Assembly (NCBI RefSeq): GCF_032391395.1
Contig: NZ_CP135916.1
Span: forward strand, 2,697,001 to 2,761,000
Source of the DNA: Sphingomonas sp. Y38-1Y
GTDB taxonomy: Bacteria; Pseudomonadota; Alphaproteobacteria; Sphingomonadales; Sphingomonadaceae
Direction: 5' to 3'
Length of the DNA: 64,000 nt
Positions 7,579 through 62,884 of this stretch are shown piece after piece. Numbering within the stretch: position 1 is the stretch's first letter; each line of letters opens with the position of its first letter. The notes under the pieces were generated by a model that saw only the letters and a list, made by a program, of their open reading frames with translations, did not search any database and was not told the origin of the DNA. The position numbers and the translations under genes were made by a program.

Positions 7579-8834
7579 CCCTGGTCGCACTGGTGGACGA
7601 CGACGAGGATCTGCGCCGCGCGACGACGCAGCTGCTGACGCTGGCCGGCCATCAGGTTCAGACCCATGAAGCGGCCGCACCCGCGCTGGCGGCGATCGGC
7701 GCGGACTTCGAAGGCGTCGTCGTCACCGACATCCGGATGCCGGGCATGTCGGGGCTCGAACTCTTCCGCGCGCTCCATGCCCGTGATGCCGAGCTGCCGG
7801 TGATCCTCGTCACCGGGCACGGCGATGTCGAGATGGCGGTCGGCGCGCTCCGCGAGGGCGCTTGGGACTTCCTGGCCAAGCCGTTCAGCCCCGACGCACT
7901 GCTCGCTGCGGTGACACGCGGTGCCGCGACGCGCGCGCTCGCGCTGGAGAACCGGCGCCTGCGGACGCTGGCGGAGGCGACCGCGGCCGACGAGCTAGTG
8001 GGCGAGAGCGCGGCGATCCGCCGCCTGCGCGCCAGCCTGCCCGCGCTCGCCGACGCCGATCTCGACATCGTGGTCGAAGGCGCAACGGGCACCGGCAAGC
8101 AGCTGCTCGCGCGGATCATCCACCGGTCTGGGCCCCGCGGGCGGCACCGCTTCGCCGTGATCGACTGCGCGGTCCTGTCGGAGAGCGCGCTGCCCGAGCT
8201 GTTTGGCGCGCAGGGGCCGATCGCCCGCGCCGATCGCGGCACGCTGTTCCTCGACAATCTCGACCGCGCGGCGGCGCCGCTCCAGCATCGCCTCGTCCAG
8301 CTGGCCGAGCGGCGGGCGGTGGCGCTGGACGCGCGCGATCCCGTCGGCGTCGATCTTCGCATCGTCGGCGCGATCGACGAGGGCGCGCAGGATCGGCTGC
8401 TGCCTGCGCTCTACCACCGGCTGGCCGCGGTGACACTGCGCCTACCGCCGCTAGCCGAGCGGCCGGAGGATGTGGCGCTGCTCGCCGCGCATTTCCTCAC
8501 CGCCCATGCCGCGCGCCGCGGGATGGCGCCGCCGCCGCTCGGCACCGCCGCCGCGCTCGCTGCTCGCCGCGACTGGCCGGGCAATGTCCGCGAGCTGGAG
8601 GCGGCAACCGAGCGCCTGCTCCTCGGGCTGGACGAGGCGGCGGGGGAAACGGCGGACCTGCCCCTCCCCGACCGCGTCCGCGCCTTCGAACGCGCCGCCA
8701 TCGAAGAAGCCGTGACGCGTACCGTCGGCGACGTCGCGCAGGCGATCCGGCTGCTCGGGATCCCGCGCGAGACCTTCTACTATCGGGTGAAGCGCCTGGG
8801 CATCGACCTCAAGCGGCTGCGCGGCGACGGGTGA
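7575..8834 (+). CDS. dctD: DctD-like NtrC-family response regulator, degenerate AAA+ domain
   Basis: A 419-residue regulator: receiver (about 1-120, phospho-acceptor D52 in VTDIRMPG, conserved K102), AAA+ domain (about 140-345), and Fis-type helix-turn-helix (about 375-415). Walker A is present as GATGTGKQ (169-176). The stretch [20 protein letters not shown] (209-228) lacks the roughly 15 residues that normally carry the GAFTGA sigma-54 contact loop, and the Walker B acid pair is D227-N228 instead of DE. It therefore probably cannot drive sigma-54 open-complex formation, and may act as a sigma-70 activator or a repressor. It is coupled to dctB by an ATGA overlap. Orthology to DctD rests on context. 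Confidence 0.85.
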
Positions 8835-55311: not shown

Positions 55312-57822
55312 CTATTCGTATCGCAGCGCCTTGACCGGGCTCGTCCGTGCGACGCGCCAGGCATGGCCGGCGACGGTTACCACCGCGATCGTCAGCGCGA
55401 GGCCGCCCGCCAACAGGAACGGCACCGGCGTCAGCGTGATGCGCTGGTCGAACCCGTTCAGCCAGTCGCGCATCAGCCACCAGGCGATCGGCCAGGCGAT
55501 CAGGTTGGCGACCAGCACGGGCCGGGTGAACTGCCACACCAGCAGGCGCACGATGTCGGTGTTGCGCGCACCCAGCACCTTGCGGATGCCGATCTCCTTG
55601 GTCCGCCGCTCGGCCGTGAAGGCGGCGAGGCCGAACAGGCCCAGACAGCCGATGACGACGGCGAGGATCGCGAAGGCGGCGAAGAGCTGGCCGCGGGCCG
55701 CCTCCCGGTCATAGAGCTCGCGGACGATGTCGTCGGCGAAGCGGGCCTCGAACGGCACCTGCGGCACGTTGCGCTTCCACACCTGCTCCGCCGCCTCCCG
55801 CACCGCGGCCGGATCGCCTTCGAAGCGGACGACGATGTCGCCGAACCCGTTTCGCTGCATGATGTACATGATCGGTTGGAGCGGGTCGCGGATCGAGCGG
55901 AAGCGCGCGTCCTCGACCACGCCGACGATCGTGACGGGAACCAGCCCGAACTCCTCGATCGTCAGTCCGGCGCGAAGCTCCTTGCCCACCGCATCGGCGG
56001 GGCTCGCGAAGCCCAGCCGCCGTGCCGCCTCTCGCGTCAGGATGACGTTGACGCCGCGCTGCGCCAGCGCCTGTTCGGCGGCGCGAACGACCGGATAGGG
56101 CGTGGTCGCGTCGTCGCGCCCGATGGCTTCCGAAAAGTCGCGGCCGGCGAGCAGCTTCATACCCATTGCCTTGAAGAAGCCGACCTCCACGGCATAGCGG
56201 CCGAGGTCGATGCGATCCTCCGTGCTGCCGGGCTTGTAGACCGTCGTCATCGAGTTGTTCTGGGGCGCGACCGCGATCTGCGTGCGGGCGACCGAGAGGA
56301 CGCCGGGCACGCGGCGAAGCTGTTCGGCCACCTGCTGGTCGCGGCCATCGACGCCGCGAAAGCCCAGATTGCCGATCTGGAGCATGCCGTCGCGCTGATA
56401 GCCGGCGTCGGCGCTGCGCGCATACACCGTCTGCGCATAGATGACGCCGGTGCAGATGATGAGGCCGATCGACACCGCGAACTGGCCGATCACCAGCGCG
56501 CTGCGCAGCTTGCCCGACCCTTGCGCGTCCGCCGCCGACTTGTTGGCCTTGAGGATCTTGGCCGGCTCGAACCGCGCGAGGTAGAAGGCGGGATAGAGGC
56601 CGGCGAGCAGTCCGACGATCAGCGTCAGCCCGACAACCCAGGGCAGTACCCCGCCGGCGCCCAGATAGGTCAGCCGCATGTCCGCCTTCAGAAAGGCGTT
56701 GAACGACGGCAGGATCAGCTCGACCGCTGCCAGCGCGATCAGCATGGCGATGGCGGTGACCAGCACCGCCTCGCTCAGGAACTGGGCGATGAGCTGGCCG
56801 CGGCTGGCGCCCAGCACCTTGCGCAGCGCGACCTCACGCGCCCGCTGCGATGCGCGTGCAGTGGCGAGGTTGGTGAAGTTGACGCACGCCATGCCCAGGA
56901 TCAGCAGCGCGATGATCGCAAAGGTCGTGACGGTGAACCGGTCGTTGCCGGGCACCGCGGAGGCGCGCTGCGCCTCGCCCAGATGGACGTCGCGCAGGCT
57001 CTCCAGCTTGAAGTCCTGATAGTCGCCAGGGTTCACCCGCCTCCCCTCGTTCGGGTAATCGGGGATGTTGCGCTTTTCCCATTCGGCCATCCGCGACTGG
57101 ATCAGCGCGGCATCGTCGGGCGAGCGCAGGCGGACGAAGTTCCAGCCTTGCTGGTTGTCCCATTGCGCCAGCTGCTCGGCCCGGTCGGCGAACTGAGTGC
57201 CGAGGTCGAAGCGCGCGATCGCGTCGGCGGTGAAGCTGGAGTTCTTGGGCCAGTCCTTGAACACGCCGGTGACGCGGTGATCGACGGGACCGGTATTATC
57301 GACGATCGTCAGCGTGCGGCCGGTCGGATCGACGTCGCCGAACCGCTTCTTCGCCTCGCTCTCGCTCAACGCGATCGAGTGGCCGTCGGGAAGCGCGGTC
57401 GAGCCGCTGCCGCGAACGAAGGGCACGTTCATGATCTCGAACAGGTTGCCATCCGCCATGCGCAGATGCTCGATCGTGCTCGCCTGGCCGTCCTGGATCA
57501 CCACGGGGGCGAAGCCGCGGACCCAGACCAGCTTTTCGACCTGATCGGGATAGTCCTTCTTGAGCGTGCGTCCGGCGACGATCGCGCTCATCTGAAGCTT
57601 CATTTCCTCGCCGCCGGTCTCGGTCGCCTGATAATGCGTCTGGAACTGGAACGCGCGGTCGGCGCCCGGCATCCAGTCGTCATAGCTCGTCTCGTACCGC
57701 ACATAGAGAAGGATCAGCAGGCACGCGGCGAGGCCGAGCGCGAGGCCGGCGATGTTGATCGCGGCATAGGCGCGGTTCTTGGCCAATGCGCGCAGGCCGA
57801 CGAGAAGATAGTTGCGCCACAT
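55312..57822 (-). CDS. ABC transporter permease, FtsX/MacB type
   Basis: An 836-residue permease with two FtsX halves. An N-terminal helix (about 20-42) is followed by a MacB periplasmic core (about 50-290), three helices (about 300-430), then a second helix, periplasmic core and three C-terminal helices (about 690-820). The RKVLGAS and RKVLGAR coupling motifs occur once in each half (EVALRKVLGASRGQL; EIGIRKVLGARNTDI), so one chain carries both half-transporters. It works with the adjacent ATPase and adaptor. Substrate unknown. Confidence 0.9.
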   Translation of the reverse strand: MWRNYLLVGLRALAKNRAYAAINIAGLALGLAACLLILLYVRYETSYDDWMPGADRAFQFQTHYQATETGGEEMKLQMSAIVAGRTLKKDYPDQVEKLVWVRGFAPVVIQDGQASTIEHLRMADGNLFEIMNVPFVRGSGSTALPDGHSIALSESEAKKRFGDVDPTGRTLTIVDNTGPVDHRVTGVFKDWPKNSSFTADAIARFDLGTQFADRAEQLAQWDNQQGWNFVRLRSPDDAALIQSRMAEWEKRNIPDYPNEGRRVNPGDYQDFKLESLRDVHLGEAQRASAVPGNDRFTVTTFAIIALLILGMACVNFTNLATARASQRAREVALRKVLGASRGQLIAQFLSEAVLVTAIAMLIALAAVELILPSFNAFLKADMRLTYLGAGGVLPWVVGLTLIVGLLAGLYPAFYLARFEPAKILKANKSAADAQGSGKLRSALVIGQFAVSIGLIICTGVIYAQTVYARSADAGYQRDGMLQIGNLGFRGVDGRDQQVAEQLRRVPGVLSVARTQIAVAPQNNSMTTVYKPGSTEDRIDLGRYAVEVGFFKAMGMKLLAGRDFSEAIGRDDATTPYPVVRAAEQALAQRGVNVILTREAARRLGFASPADAVGKELRAGLTIEEFGLVPVTIVGVVEDARFRSIRDPLQPIMYIMQRNGFGDIVVRFEGDPAAVREAAEQVWKRNVPQVPFEARFADDIVRELYDREAARGQLFAAFAILAVVIGCLGLFGLAAFTAERRTKEIGIRKVLGARNTDIVRLLVWQFTRPVLVANLIAWPIAWWLMRDWLNGFDQRITLTPVPFLLAGGLALTIAVVTVAGHAWRVARTSPVKALRYE

Positions 57823-57851: not shown

Positions 57852-58538
57852 TCAGGCGGCGCGGCGGCGTTCCTGAAGGACCCGGCCGTCCAGCATGTTG
57901 ACGACGCGGCTGGCATAGTCGGCATGCGCGGGCGAGTGGGTGACCATCACGATCGTCGCCCCCTGCCCGTTCAGCGTCTGGAGCATCCGCATCACCTCCT
58001 CGCCATGCGCGGTGTCGAGGTTGCCGGTGGGCTCGTCCGCCAGGATCAGCTTGGGCTCGGCGACGAGCGCGCGGGCGACCGCGACGCGCTGCTGCTGGCC
58101 ACCCGACAGCTGGCTGGGGCGATGGCGCGCGCGGTGGGCGATGCCGACGCGGTCCATCACCGCCTCCGCCCGCCGCCGCCGCTCGGCCGCGGGGACGTCG
58201 TGATAGAGAAGCGCGAGCTCGATATTTTCGCGCACCGTCAACTCGTCGACCAGGTTGAAGCTCTGGAAGATGAAGCCGAGATTGGCTTTTCGCACGCCGG
58301 ACAGCTGCGTCTCGCTCAGCCCCGACACTTCCTGTCCGTCGAAGACGTAGGAGCCGCTCGATGGCCGGTCGAGCATGCCGATCAGGTTGAGCAGCGTCGA
58401 CTTGCCGCACCCCGACGGACCCATGATCGCGACGAACTCGCCCGCACCGACGTCCAGGTCGATGGCGTCGAGCGCCGTCGTCTCGACGGTGTCGGTCTGA
58501 TAGACGCGAGACAATTGGCGCATCTGAAGCATCGTCAT
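57852..58538 (-). CDS. ABC transporter ATP-binding protein, MacB/LolD type
   Basis: A 228-residue ATPase with Walker A GPSGCGKST (about 40-48), Q-loop in FIFQSFNLVDEL, signature LSGGQQQRVAVARAL, Walker B LILADEPTGNLD and H-loop VTHSPAH. The FQSFNL and EPTGNLD wording is typical of MacB/LolD/FtsE mechanotransmission ATPases. ATG at 58538 overlaps the adaptor stop by four bases. It energises the adjoining permease. Confidence 0.94.
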   Translation of the reverse strand: MTMLQMRQLSRVYQTDTVETTALDAIDLDVGAGEFVAIMGPSGCGKSTLLNLIGMLDRPSSGSYVFDGQEVSGLSETQLSGVRKANLGFIFQSFNLVDELTVRENIELALLYHDVPAAERRRRAEAVMDRVGIAHRARHRPSQLSGGQQQRVAVARALVAEPKLILADEPTGNLDTAHGEEVMRMLQTLNGQGATIVMVTHSPAHADYASRVVNMLDGRVLQERRRAA

Positions 58539-59839
58539 TCCTTTGGCGTGGAGAGGTCGAGCCGATCCTTGTCGGCGAAACCGGTATAGGGAGAGGTGAT
58601 GACGCGCTCGCCGGGGTCGAGCCCTTCGAGCACCTCGATCGAGGCGGCATTGCGGCGGCCCAGGCGGACGGGGCGCTTGACCGCGCTCTGCCCGTCGGCG
58701 GCGACGACGAAGACGAAGCGGCCACCGCTTTCGGTATAGAAGGCGCCGTTGGGGATCAGCCGCGCGGGCGCCGGATCGCCGAGCGTCAGCCGCGCCTGAA
58801 GCGTCTGTCCGCGAGAGATGCCCGCGGGCTCTGCCCCGGTGAATTGCAGGTCGACCTGGAACTGGCCGTTCTGCACCTGGGGATAGATCTTCGAGACGCG
58901 CGCGGCATAGGTGCGCCCGGCCAGCTCCACGCTCGCCTTCTGGTCGATGACGATGCGGCCAAGATAGAATTCGTCGACGCCGGCCATCAGCTTGTTGCGG
59001 CCCGGGCTGTCGATCTGGCCAATGCGCTCGCCGCGCGCCAGGCTCTGGCCGACCTGAAGGTCGAACCCCGACAGCTTGCCCGCAACCGGTGCGCGCAGGT
59101 TGAGCGCGGCGAGGTTCGCGCGCGCGATGTCGAGGCCGGCGCGCATCGACCCGATCGAGGCGCGCTGCTGCGACAACTGGCTCGATTGCAGCCGCTCGTC
59201 GTTCGACTGGCTGCGCGCGACGGCGGCCAGGCGCTGCTGCTCGTAGCGATACTGGTCGCTGGTGTCGGCGAACACGCGCCCCGCGACGAAGCCCTTCTGC
59301 GCCAGCGGCGCCTCGCGCTCATATTGCCGCTTGGCGCGCTGAAGGCCGAGCCGCGCCTCCAGCAATGCGCGTTCGTTGGCCAGGCGGGTCTGCGACAGCG
59401 CGAGTTCCTGGCTGCGCATGTTGTTGATCTGCTGCTCGACCTCGGTCTGGCGCGCGAGGGTCGAGAGCTGGAGTTCGGCGTTCGACAGCTCGACGATCGG
59501 CTGGCCGGCGGCAAGGCTGGCGCCGTCCTCGACCAGGATCTTCTCGACCCGCCCCCCCTCGATCGCGTCGAGATAGACGGTGAACAGCGGCGTGACGCGG
59601 GCGCGCAGCGGAATGAAGTCGTCGAAGGTACCGTTGGTCACCTTGGCGATCGTCAGGCGGTCGCTGGAGACCGTCTGGCTGTCGCCGCGCGGGGCGTAGA
59701 GCCAGAAGACGGTCGCGGCGATCGCGACGCCGGCCGCGGCGATCGCCGCCCAGGCCCAGCGCGGCAGGCGCCGGCGCTCGACGACGCGATCCATCGCGCC
59801 GCCGGTCGCGGGGCGGTCGAGCGTGCGGACGGTCGTCAA
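58535..59839 (-). CDS. periplasmic adaptor (HlyD/MacA-type) of the ABC efflux system
   Basis: A 434-residue membrane-fusion protein with one N-terminal membrane helix (about 28-50 from the TTG start), a lipoyl/barrel-sandwich domain (VYLDAIEGGRVEKILVEDGASL and its partner NLRAPVAGKLSGF), a long coiled-coil hairpin (about 120-240), and a C-terminal beta-barrel. The TTG at 59839 overlaps a preceding stop as TTGA and has a GGGGG box; ATG at 59794 gives 419 residues as the alternative. No outer-membrane TolC partner is in the window. Confidence 0.85.
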   Translation of the reverse strand: MTTVRTLDRPATGGAMDRVVERRRLPRWAWAAIAAAGVAIAATVFWLYAPRGDSQTVSSDRLTIAKVTNGTFDDFIPLRARVTPLFTVYLDAIEGGRVEKILVEDGASLAAGQPIVELSNAELQLSTLARQTEVEQQINNMRSQELALSQTRLANERALLEARLGLQRAKRQYEREAPLAQKGFVAGRVFADTSDQYRYEQQRLAAVARSQSNDERLQSSQLSQQRASIGSMRAGLDIARANLAALNLRAPVAGKLSGFDLQVGQSLARGERIGQIDSPGRNKLMAGVDEFYLGRIVIDQKASVELAGRTYAARVSKIYPQVQNGQFQVDLQFTGAEPAGISRGQTLQARLTLGDPAPARLIPNGAFYTESGGRFVFVVAADGQSAVKRPVRLGRRNAASIEVLEGLDPGERVITSPYTGFADKDRLDLSTPKE

Positions 59840-60057
59840 CGCATCGCCCCCATCAGCGAGACCGCAGACCGTCCGATTTCGAACAGGCCTGTCCGGTTTC
59901 GGACAGGGGCGCCGCCGCCGCTGATCGACAGGCGGACCGACGCCAGCTCGAGCTTGAGCTGCCACGGCGCCGCCGGCGCGCCCGCCGGCCGCCAGAGCGC
60001 CGCGCCTGTCAGCGCCAGCAGCGCGAGCGTCGCCGCCACACCCTTTTCCCGGTTCAT
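59836..60057 (-). CDS. possible small exported protein heading the efflux operon
   Basis: A 73-codon frame starting MNREKGVAATLALLALTGAA, which looks like a signal peptide, then a short tail. It starts about 28 bases after the expected sigma-54 transcription start, and its TGA overlaps the adaptor TTG. Against it, two regulatory-looking dyads lie inside it and no family is recognised. It may be a leader rather than a functional protein. Confidence 0.35.
   Translation of the reverse strand: MNREKGVAATLALLALTGAALWRPAGAPAAPWQLKLELASVRLSISGGGAPVRNRTGLFEIGRSAVSLMGAMR
59869..59907. promoter_or_regulatory. tandem dyads, probable binding sites of the NtrC-type regulator
   Basis: Site 1 (59869-59887) contains GTCCGATTTCGAACAGG. 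Site 2 (59888-59907) is the perfect repeat CCTGTCCG-GTTT-CGGACAGG. The two agree at 16 of 19 aligned positions and are 20 bp apart centre to centre. A third copy lies at 60156-60171. Confidence 0.6.
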
Positions 60058-60095: not shown

Positions 60096-60112
60096 TGCAG
60101 CTTTCGTGCCAA
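60096..60112 (-). promoter_or_regulatory. sigma-54-type promoter of the ABC efflux operon
   Basis: On the minus strand TTGGCACGAAAGCTGCA fits the sigma-54 consensus (TTGGCACG-N4-TTGC) at every key base, with GG and GC ten bases apart and only one T changed to C near -12. It points at the adaptor-ATPase-permease operon. Confidence 0.75.
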
Positions 60113-60138
60113 GCGCCTCGCGGACCGCTCGAAAGCGA

Positions 60139-60154
60139 CTGGCACGCTTATTGT
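60139..60154 (+). promoter_or_regulatory. sigma-54-like promoter of the regulator gene
   Basis: CTGGCACGCTTATTGT has a perfect -24 element (CTGGCACG) and TTGT at -12 in place of TTGC, with correct spacing. It points at the NtrC-type regulator gene that starts 39 bp further on. Confidence 0.6.
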
Positions 60155-60155
60155 C

Positions 60156-60171
60156 TGTGCGGCTTCGGACA
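60156..60171. promoter_or_regulatory. regulator binding site between the divergent promoters and the regulator gene
   Basis: TGTGCGGCTTCGGACA matches TGTCCGGTTTCGGACA of the site at 59888-59907 at 14 of 16 bases. Its centre is about 53 bp upstream of the minus-strand -24 element, a normal enhancer position, and it overlaps the expected start point of the plus-strand promoter, where it could also repress. Confidence 0.6.
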
Positions 60172-60192
60172 CCCGATGTACGAAAGCGGTCT

Positions 60193-61587
60193 ATGCAGGG
60201 AAATATGGGGCAGCAGGGCAAATACGGGTTGTGCGTCGTCGTCGACGACGATCCCGACATCCTGACCGCGGCGCGACTGGCGCTGCGCGGCTTGTTCGAG
60301 GAAGTGGTGACGTGCGCCGCCCCCGACGAGGCGCGGCGCGTGGTCGAGGCCCGGCGGCCCGACATCGTCCTGCTCGACGCCAATTTCGCGCGCGGCGCGA
60401 CCGATGCAGTCGAGGGGCTGGCGCTGCTCGAACACTTCCTCGCCGCCGATCCCGGCCTCGCCGTCGTGATGATTACCGCGCATGCCGGCATCCATGTCGC
60501 GGTCGAGGCAATGAAGCGCGGTGCCGCCGATTTCGTCGCCAAGCCCTGGTCGAACGACCGCCTGGTCGCCGCCGTGCGCAGCGCCGCCGCCCTGGGCGCC
60601 AGCCGCCGCACGCTCCCGCCCGAAGTACAGAAGTCCGTGCCGCCGCCGGGCAGCAGCGCGCTGATCGGCGGGTCGCCGGCGATGGCGCGCATCCACGCGC
60701 TGATCGGCCGCGCCGCCCCGACCGAGGCGAACGTGCTGGTGCTGGGCGAGAACGGCACCGGCAAGGAGCTCGTCGCGCGCGCGCTCCACGCGCAATCGCG
60801 CCGCGCGGCCAGGCCGATGGTGACGATCGACCTGGGCGCGATCGCGCCCGAGCTGATCGATTCGGAGCTGTTCGGCCATGTGAAGGGCGCTTTCACCGAC
60901 GCGCGTGCCGACCGCGTCGGCCGCATTCAGGCGGCGGATGGCGGCACGCTGTTCCTGGACGAGATCGGCAACCTGCCGCTCCACCTCCAGCCCAAGCTGC
61001 TGACCGCGCTGGAGCAGCGGCGGATCACGCCGGTGGGCGCGAACCGCGAGGTGCCCGTCGACATCCGCGTCGTCGCCGCAACCAACATGACCCCCGCGGC
61101 GCTGCGCGACCCGCGCCATTTCCGCCAGGACCTGCTGTTCCGGCTCAACACCGTCGAGATCGAGTTGCCACCCCTGCGCGAGCGGCGCGAGGATGTGGCG
61201 GGGCTGATCGACCATTATCTCGCGCTCCATGCCGAGCGTTACGGCCGCGCGGTGCCCGCGCTTGCCGCCGGCACGATGGCGGCGCTCTCCGCGGCCGAGT
61301 GGCCCGGCAACGTCCGCGCGCTTCGTCACGCGACCGAACGGGCGGTGATCCTGGGCGGCGAGGCACCGCTCACCGCCGCGGACTTCGGCATCGTCGCCGC
61401 CGCCGGCCCCATCCTCGACGTCAGCGTCGCCGTGCCGGAGGTCGCCGACCTGAATCTCGACCGGGTCGAGCGGCGCCTCGTCGAAACCGCGCTCCGCAAG
61501 CACGGCTACAACATCTCGGCGGCGGCGACCGAACTGGGGCTTTCGCGCGCGGCGCTCTATCGACGCATGGAAAAGCATGGGCTTTGA
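60193..61587 (+). CDS. sigma-54-dependent NtrC-type response regulator
   Basis: A 464-residue regulator: receiver (about 11-130; D62 phospho-acceptor in IVLLDANF, K117), AAA+ (about 155-390) and Fis-type helix-turn-helix (about 435-462, [20 protein letters not shown]). Walker A GENGTGKE is at 185-192, the sigma-54 contact loop GAFTDA at 232-237, Walker B LFLDE at 253-257, and [12 protein letters not shown] supplies the arginine fingers. Unlike the DctD homologue at 7575-8834, all catalytic parts are present. ATG at 60193 chosen; 60205 possible. It overlaps the kinase gene by 11 bases and is divergent from the ABC efflux operon. Confidence 0.92.
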
Positions 61588-62884
61588 CCGCCGCTTCACC
61601 GCGGTCGCACTCGGCTGGGTGGTACTGCTCGGGCTGGGCCTGTCGGCGCTGGCGGCGGCGATCGCGCTTGGCGGCGGCGGGGCGACGCTGATCGTCGCGG
61701 GCGCGGCCGCACTCGGCGGCATGACGGGGCTGCTCCACCATGTCACCCGCACCAACCGTGCGCTGGTGCAGTTCGTGGAGGCGCTGCGGCTAGGCGACAA
61801 CTCCGCGCGGATGGCTCGCGGCGGCGGCGAGAGCTTCGCCGCGCTCGCCGACGCGCTCAACGCCGCGATGCGCGACCTCGACCGCGCGCGCACCCGCGAC
61901 GCGGCCGAGATCCGCTTTCTCGAGGCGCTGCTCGACGACATGCCGATCGCTTTGCTCCTGATCGAAGCGGGCTCGGTACGCCTCGCCAACAAGGCCGCGC
62001 GCGGGTTGTTCGGCGGTGAGGCGGAGGGCGACGCCGGCCGGCTGGCCGCACCGGGCGAGCCGTTCCACGCGATCCTGACCGGCGCGCGTGCAGGCGGCGA
62101 GCCGATCCCCCTCACCCTGCCCGGCGGGACGCAGCGCGCGATCGTCCGCGGCGCCGACCTCGCCCGGCTGGGGATGCCGGTGCGCGCGGTGCTCGTCGAG
62201 CCGATCCAGCAGGCGCTGGACCGCGCAGAGGCAGGCGCGCAGACCGCGATGGTGCGCGTGCTGACGCACGAGATCCTCAACTCGCTGACGCCGATCGTCT
62301 CGCTGGCGGGCACCGCCGCGGTGCTGCTGGGCGAGGATCCTATCGAACTCGACGAGGCGCGGCTGGCGGTCGAGACGCTGGCCCGCCGCGCGGAGTCCAC
62401 GCGCCGCTTCATCGACAGCTATCGCGAGATGGCGCGCCCCGTCGCCGCCCGCCGTCGCCGCTTTGCCGCGGAACCCTTCGCCGCCGAACTCGCGCGGCTG
62501 TTCACGATCGAGTGGCTGGAGCACAAGCTCGATTGGCGCGTCGAGCCGGGGCTGACGATCGATGCCGATCCCGATCTGCTGGCACAGGCGCTGCTCAACC
62601 TCCTGCGCAACGCCGCGCAGGCGAGCGACGCAAGAGAGCGTCGCCGGGTCTCGCTTCGGCTGTACGCGGGCGCGGGCGGCGCGGTGATCGAGGTCGGGGA
62701 CAACGGCCCCGGCATTCCGGAGGCGCTGCGCGGCGACGTCCTCCTCCCCTTCTTCACCACCAAGGCGGAGGGGTCGGGCATCGGTCTTCACCTCGTCCGC
62801 CAGATCGCGATCGCGCATGGCGGGCGACTGGAGATCGCAACCGGCGCGGAAGGCGGCGCGCTGATCCGGTTGCAGGGGTTTTAG
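61577..62884 (+). CDS. membrane sensor histidine kinase, partner of the NtrC-type regulator
   Basis: A 435-residue kinase with two N-terminal membrane helices (about 8-30 and 34-55) separated by a very short loop, so it probably senses within the membrane. A HAMP-like linker and PAS-like segment (about 105-200) precede the kinase core: H231 in VLTHEILNSLTPIVSL, N-box LLNLLRNAAQAS, G1 DNGPGIPEAL, F-box FFTTK and G2 GSGIGLHLVRQIA. All boxes are intact. It overlaps the regulator gene and should phosphorylate it. Confidence 0.92.
   Translation: MGFDRRFTAVALGWVVLLGLGLSALAAAIALGGGGATLIVAGAAALGGMTGLLHHVTRTNRALVQFVEALRLGDNSARMARGGGESFAALADALNAAMRDLDRARTRDAAEIRFLEALLDDMPIALLLIEAGSVRLANKAARGLFGGEAEGDAGRLAAPGEPFHAILTGARAGGEPIPLTLPGGTQRAIVRGADLARLGMPVRAVLVEPIQQALDRAEAGAQTAMVRVLTHEILNSLTPIVSLAGTAAVLLGEDPIELDEARLAVETLARRAESTRRFIDSYREMARPVAARRRRFAAEPFAAELARLFTIEWLEHKLDWRVEPGLTIDADPDLLAQALLNLLRNAAQASDARERRRVSLRLYAGAGGAVIEVGDNGPGIPEALRGDVLLPFFTTKAEGSGIGLHLVRQIAIAHGGRLEIATGAEGGALIRLQGF

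Follow-up and report, generated by a model that had tools for sequence, protein, structure and literature searches.

RNA polymerase containing sigma-54 does not transcribe before an ATP-driven activator has acted on it, and this silence depends in part on the C at position -12. In E. coli, C-12 is present in 96% of sigma-54 promoters and holds back basal transcription in vitro, C-12 is not strictly kept at the bypass promoters, and bypass was seen with a Region-I-deleted sigma-54 while pervasive bypass in vivo was slight, according to the available part of PMC4551910. The upstream sites of the activator NifA are given as TGT-N10-ACA in the accessible part of PMC4999443, and a 2025 in-silico study links sigma-54 to FtsX-type ABC systems (PMC12316311, available in part). 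A direct literature search for MacB/HlyD exporters under sigma-54/NtrC control gave no match, and the words ABC, efflux and permease are absent from the main text of PMC3162934. Apart from PMC4551910, we noticed no other report of a conserved non-C -12 class in the literature covered, which mostly excluded subscription papers.

The window, meaning the whole stretch of 64,000 nucleotides analysed here, carries an exporter operon and a regulator-kinase pair in divergent arrangement, with the following features.

55312..57822, minus strand: permease of the duplicated FtsX/MacB type, ADOP-like (FtsX and MacB_PCD above cut-offs, two stretches each)
57852..58538, minus strand: ABC ATPase of the MacB/LolD/DarD type (ABC_tran above the Pfam cut-off; DarD model 271 bits, cut-off 375)
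58535..59839, minus strand: HlyD/RND-type periplasmic adaptor, start TTG at 59839 or ATG at about 59794 (HlyD_3 and TIGR01730 above cut-off)
59836..60057, minus strand: leader small ORF of 73 aa with a hydrophobic N terminus, overlapping pair A
59870..59885: second palindrome of pair A (CGTCCGATTTCGAACA), 20 bp from the other pair A palindrome
59890..59905: pair A palindrome (TGTCCGGTTTCGGACA), exact TGTCCG-N4-CGGACA
60096..60111, minus strand: P_prox, predicted canonical sigma-54 promoter of the leader gene and exporter operon (TGGCACGAAAGCTGCA, GG-N10-GC; from sequence, conservation and a palindrome 45 bp away)
60140..60155, plus strand: predicted sigma-54-like promoter of the regulator-kinase pair, non-C -12 class (TGGCACGCTTATTGTC, GG-N10-GT; from sequence, conservation and logo)
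60156..60171: pair B palindrome 1 (TGTGCGGCTTCGGACA), adjoining the plus site; putative enhancer of P_prox and operator of the plus promoter
60177..60192: pair B palindrome 2, degenerate in the window (TGTACGAAAGCGGTCT), 21 bp from palindrome 1
60205..61587, plus strand: NtrC-type response regulator (Response_reg, Sigma54_activat and HTH_8 above Pfam cut-offs)
61577..62884, plus strand: sensor histidine kinase, PAS-like (HATPase_c and PAS_8 above Pfam cut-offs)

The preliminary description had placed two divergent sigma-54 promoters between the efflux operon and its regulator, and both sequences were found where it had put them: TTGGCACGAAAGCTGCA reads on the minus strand at 60112-60096 and CTGGCACGCTTATTGT on the plus strand at 60139-60154, pointing apart with 26 bp between them. 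The AAA+ domain and GAFTDA loop it had ascribed to the regulator were likewise present, the former as the Sigma54_activat match and the latter in the translation. That description is silent on the palindromes, on the leader ORF and on a frameshift in rpoN, outside the window, all of which are described below. The regulator has the receiver, the AAA+ domain with a GAFTGA-type loop (GAFTDA here) and the Fis-type helix of the NtrC-type class, and it scored below the curated cut-offs of TIGR02915 (PEP-CTERM regulator, the best NCBIfam model; 343 bits, cut-off 503) and TIGR01818 (NtrC, NR-I; 329 bits, cut-off 559). The translated N terminus of the kinase, inspected by eye, shows a hydrophobic stretch with a short loop. 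Elsewhere in the window, a second, weaker Sigma54_activat match (74 bits) lies at about 7995-8438 on the plus strand (L011).

Regulator orthologues were found in 24 of 149 genomes in a first pass at E 1e-80. At E 1e-130, one was present in 62 of the 397 family-sample genomes and in 53 of the 201 genus-sample genomes; each of these counts includes the host. The adaptor gene was divergent from the regulator in 111 of 112 loci, and a kinase match was present in 110 of these 111. Two loci were left out, L206 (adaptor match absent in the stretch fetched) and L038 (regulator 40% identical, adaptor match absent). Removal of 11 loci with at least 90% gap identity left 100 non-redundant loci; these share ancestry, so that counts across them depend on one another. 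One genome (G424) carries the regulator locus in two copies (L178 and L216).

Every TGGCA[CT][GA] box in the 100 orthologous gaps was then tallied without any requirement at -12. The 153 minus-strand boxes were followed by GC in 140 cases, GA in 4, GT in 2 and others in 7, and the 86 plus-strand boxes by GA in 69, GT in 11, others in 6 and GC in none. First-order Markov controls gave 2.1 per 100 for a minus -24 box with GC, which 99 of 100 loci have, and 0.06 for a plus -24 box with TTGA or TTGT, which 77 of 100 have; chance resemblance was rejected on these counts for both sites. L017 is a locus in which the canonical minus site was not found. In the window itself, the minus site is GG-N10-GC, with the -24 GG and -12 GC of a canonical sigma-54 promoter; the plus site, which has a perfect -24 box (TGGCACG) and GT at -12, departs from that form. 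The expectation of the preliminary description that GG-N10-GC would be conserved at both positions was thus borne out for the minus strand (GC in 140 of 153 boxes) and not for the plus strand (GC in 0 of 86, GA or GT in 80 of 86). By its own criterion, under which GG/GC pairs that are not conserved speak against a promoter, 0 GC in 86 boxes would weigh against the one on the plus strand; the element itself is nonetheless present in 77 of 100 loci. Because it is kept so widely, and because its variant is common at glnB (see below), we read the plus element as a real but special promoter.

The plus-site logo, built from 75 loci with enough flank, reads TGGCACG.aa.TTGATTGTCCG.t..CG.AC, with palindromes at +16 and +37, the second being weaker and 21 bp further on; upstream of the site there is little conservation. 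In 78 loci with a plus site 30-90 bp from the regulator start, the -12 base is A in 68, T in 10 and C in none. On the regulator tree, parsimony requires at least 5 interchanges between A and T at -12 among the 78 labelled loci, and at least 6 changes in the presence of the plus site over the 100 loci; the tree is a quick one in which 28 of 97 inner branches are weak, and if only the well-supported branches are considered, 4 changes are needed for the T label and 4 for absence. By the tree pattern, the plus site is absent from 22 of 100 loci, and the regulator is therefore expressible without it. Among 15 loci looked at, three (L031, L036 and L212) have a plus site with GC at -12 and an imperfect -24 box.

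The variant was also searched for outside this locus, and 130 of 298 family genomes contain TGGCACG-N4-TTGAT, the reversed-control columns being mostly zero. Thirty copies were fetched, many of which lie inside long open frames; ten were examined, four of which were followed by an in-frame PII gene (L262, L266, L288 and L291) and one, carrying GA at -12, by pspA (L269). In other bacteria glnB, glnK and pspA are sigma-54 targets. For genes putatively labelled glnB or glnK on the basis of two identity classes, boxes of the form TGGCA[CT][GAT] with G at -13 were tallied, and for pspA a slightly looser box. In 50 of 96 listed glnB-type places (30 taken by score, the rest picked; L292-L341), 48 boxes were found in 46 loci, with GA in 32, GT in 5, GG in 4 and GC in 7, so that 41 of 48 were non-C. 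In 40 of 44 listed glnK-type places (L342-L381), 35 boxes were found in 34 loci, all with GC (35 of 35), one of which, at -229, is probably there by chance. For pspA, 26 of 30 loci matched the query and 13 of these had one box each, with GC in 11, GG in 1 and GT in 1; the assignment of pspA to the non-C class that L269 had suggested was not borne out. The idea that a non-C -12 is peculiar to the exporter regulator was rejected, since glnB shares the variant. The host's own glnB site is GC (L322), and its glnK-type gene has a canonical site upstream (L349).

TTGA is also the core of the sigma-70 -35 box TTGACA, and both gene classes could need basal expression; accordingly, the TTGA could be the -35 box of a sigma-70 promoter overlapping the sigma-54 site, with A-12 kept for sigma-70. 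We regard this as highly improbable, given that -10-like hexamers at spacers of 15-19 were found behind 0 of 78 regulator and 2 of 41 glnB promoters, which does not exceed the numbers at other offsets. An overlap of -35 and -10 boxes of this kind is disfavoured, the -10-like boxes not rising above background.

Two tandem pairs of the palindrome TGTCCG-N4-CGGACA flank the promoters, pair A at 59870-59905 and pair B at 60156-60192, and judging by sequence these are probably the sites of the NtrC-type regulator. Among the zero-mismatch matches listed for the host genome, the exact palindrome occurs once, in pair A; with up to 1 mismatch, the genome-wide scan gave 63 forward matches against 22 in the reversed control. 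The palindrome letters were not found in PMC4641369. Neighbouring strong palindromes less than 60 bp apart are spaced by 20-23 bp in 139 of 144 cases. From the minus -24 box to the nearest strong palindrome, 116 of 123 distances fall within the windows 41-46, 53-57, 64-68, 74-78 and 86-91, a count that is inflated by related loci and for which the windows were drawn after the distances had been seen. These windows follow steps of about 11 bp, or about one helical turn, and take up 27 of the 106 positions available; when each of the 29 distinct distances is counted once, the phasing is weaker (Rayleigh p about 0.0003-0.002). P_prox of the window, at 45 bp from its nearest palindrome, lies within a phase window. 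For 17 of 140 canonical minus sites, a strong palindrome 25-130 bp upstream was not found.

At the plus site, a palindrome adjoins downstream, over the expected start, in 59 of the 78 loci with a plus site. In the 19 loci without it, -12 is still GA in 15, GT in 4 and GC in none, and at least 11 of these loci have tandem palindromes immediately upstream of the -24 box. The notion that TTGAT is a conserved flank of the palindrome was rejected on the basis of these 19 loci and of 185 other strong palindromes that lack TTGAT. In either arrangement, the bound regulator could interfere with polymerase at the plus promoter. Since the palindromes are phased upstream of the pump promoters and adjoin the plus site, the bound regulator should activate the pump and limit its own gene.

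A quite unlikely alternative is that the plus element is not a promoter at all, and serves as a decoy or roadblock for sigma-54 polymerase that does not fire, or as the site of another protein such as IHF. The IHF consensus has a WATCAA and a TTR part, and TTGATT is the complement of AATCAA on the minus strand, which fits WATCAA; against this, the logo lacks the TTR half and TGGCACG would go unexplained, and an IHF site was rejected with half of the consensus fitting and the other half not. GC is never found at -12 in the plus-strand boxes, as a non-firing element would allow, and sigma-54 represses at some promoters according to the available part of PMC4551910, although the repression-linked sites described there keep C-12. 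The element is, however, kept in the 19 loci without an adjoining palindrome and takes the same form at glnB.

In 39 of 100 loci, pair A serves a further minus promoter, distal to the first, and 6 more loci have the distal one only. By the same pattern, a distal minus promoter was not found in the window, where pair A is nonetheless kept. Of the 55 loci that lack a distal promoter, 35 have both pair A and the plus site, 11 have neither, 3 have the plus site only and 6 have pair A only (Fisher p 2.5e-5 for these 55 of 100 loci, relatedness uncorrected); three of the six with pair A only have the plus site with imperfect -24 and GC at -12, and in the other three none was found. Given this co-occurrence, pair A may serve the plus promoter. 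The same association would fit a plus element that is a sigma-54 promoter merely weakened by A/T-12 and fully activator-dependent, with basal regulator coming from another promoter. GC in 0 of 86 plus boxes agrees with this, as do the GC-type sites of L031, L036 and L212, whose -24 boxes are imperfect as if weakness were selected. We nevertheless find it somewhat doubtful, because a conserved sigma-70 promoter was not seen behind the plus element, conservation upstream is slight, and the non-C state is common to glnB and not to glnK. It is glnB that is expected to need basal expression.

Collectively, these results bear out the reading of divergent sigma-54 control at the pump promoter, with its canonical minus site in 99 of 100 loci and the divergent layout in 111 of 112. 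As far as comparison of sequences can tell, the reading probably holds for the regulator promoter too, in a special sense, since its -12 is not GC. What is new is the conserved non-C -12 class; the pump and regulator belong to a kind that is widespread.

The rpoN gene of the host (L142, G000:C1:3202023-3202901), which lies beyond the window, has in this assembly a one-base frameshift just before the DNA-binding helix-turn-helix, with the Sigma54_DBD match split over two frames and a one-base gap relative to seven relatives. If the frameshift is real, neither promoter works in this strain. That the switch is dead here for this reason is compatible with every other reading; we hold it to be unlikely. 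The Sigma54_DBD match is unbroken in 104 of 104 other genomes tested (24 of 24 and 80 of 80, the second set being 80 searched of 88 intended), 102 of which bear the locus. On the other side, an indel of one base seen in a single assembly may be an error of that assembly, and the host still has its palindromes, P_prox and the canonical site in front of the glnK-type gene.

Regarding the exporter, the preliminary name "MacAB-like" proved loose. An adaptor, a permease with MacB_PCD and FtsX, and an ABC ATPase are shared with the MacAB macrolide exporter, but ATPase and permease are separate, unfused genes here, and the permease has two FtsX and two MacB_PCD stretches. Against PRK10535 (MacB; cut-off 966 bits), the ATPase scored 237 and the permease 33 bits. 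The darobactin exporter DarBCD resembles the window in that DarD and DarC are the best NCBIfam models of the ATPase and adaptor, and the ADOP duplicated permease in that ADOP is the best NCBIfam model of the permease; each of these scores, however, lies below the curated cut-off (DarC 172 of 450 bits, DarD 271 of 375, DarB 71 of 700, ADOP permease model TIGR03434 311 of 622).

The leader ORF of the window (73 aa) matched no Pfam or NCBIfam family. By a loose rule applied without a shuffled control, a leader-type ORF (hydrophobic N terminus, start within 160 bases of the predicted P_prox start) was counted in 81 of 98 loci. The larger leader proteins of three chosen relatives (L024, L029 and L032) scored 52-73 bits with UrcA TIGR04433 (cut-off 25), a model to which the window ORF gave no match; the first gene of the exporter operon thus belongs to the UrcA family in certain relatives (all 3 tested), and in others it encodes a microprotein that looks unrelated. 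The 3' end of the leader ORF contains the pair A palindromes (59836-59905), which therefore encode part of the leader peptide. Leader peptides of relatives have similar ends, e.g. FDFGQ.

Sigma-54 control had been called a less common mode for such exporters, which now appears doubtful. From 582 candidates that encoded a relative of the regulator, 80 named loci were kept, and in 57 of these 80, from several phyla, matches to the adaptor, ATPase or permease lie upstream on the opposite strand. The sigma-54 link to FtsX-type ABC systems in PMC12316311 likewise speaks against rarity. Upstream motifs were counted in 76 of the 80, the rest having too little upstream sequence or a regulator match that was not strong. 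A palindrome with up to 1 mismatch was present upstream in 35 of 76 (control 1.0), comprising all five sphingomonads (L061-L064 and L076) and 30 of the 71 others. Within the 76, a plus box TGGCACG with TTGA or TTGT was found only in L061 and L062, both Sphingomonas, and in none outside the sphingomonads. At the minus position, four Bacteroidota loci (L072, L079, L080 and L081) carry TGGCAY-N5-TTGGC, that is, GG-N11-GC and not GG-N10-GC.

The sites, their spacing, phasing and conservation, and the gene layout are read directly from sequence. Considering these results, we judge it reasonably probable that the module is a self-contained, sigma-54-dependent envelope-export switch with its own regulator-kinase pair. 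The kinase would sense membrane or envelope stress and, as the domains suggest, phosphorylate the NtrC-type regulator, which, from the position and conservation of the sites, would bind the tandem palindromes TGTCCG-N4-CGGACA. From pair B, it would activate P_prox and hence the small secreted or membrane leader, followed by the adaptor, ABC ATPase and permease. The plus element would be a second sigma-54 promoter, with A or T for C at -12, driving regulator and kinase; by extension from the available part of PMC4551910, the A or T would loosen the silencing of sigma-54 polymerase, and some regulator would therefore always be made. Bound regulator, covering the expected plus start in most loci with a plus site, would turn the pump on and its own gene down, and a positive feedback at the plus promoter may come from pair A. 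More tentatively, we propose that in sphingomonads C-12 marks tight, switch-type promoters (the exporter operon, glnK and pspA) and A/T-12 promoters that leak without activator. Under this code, it is possible, with the same reserve, that a naturally selected activator-independent class of sigma-54 promoter maintains a constant low supply of the regulator and of the PII protein encoded by glnB, and, no more firmly, that the regulator's own sites at the start point add self-limitation. A promoter class that keeps A/T-12 at genes plausibly needing an expression floor would bear on how such circuits start from nothing, and genome scans demanding GG-N10-GC miss such promoters.

Compared with known systems, the locus resembles a sigma-54/NtrC two-component promoter in the GG-N10-GC of P_prox, the GAFTDA activator and the upstream tandem palindromes in helical phase; it differs in that the regulator's own promoter has A or T at -12 (80 of 86 boxes) and in that a palindrome adjoins this promoter downstream (59 of 78 loci). 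NifA has a Fis-type helix, as does the regulator here. TGTCCG-N4-CGGACA shares the TGT-N10-ACA frame of the NifA sites in the accessible part of PMC4999443, whereas the CCG/CGG arms, the tandem pairs at 20-23 bp and a response regulator in place of NifA set the present sites apart. The systems of PMC12316311 are alike in the predicted sigma-54 control of COG0577/COG1136 exporters; in its available text, however, that study names Gammaproteobacteria, Opitutia and Bacteroidia, without this regulator, these sites or the -12 variant. Finally, the E. coli bypass promoters in the available part of PMC4551910 share -24/-12 sites in which C-12 is not strictly kept, but there this concerns eight sites with a mutant sigma, whereas here the variant is family-wide and found at defined genes.
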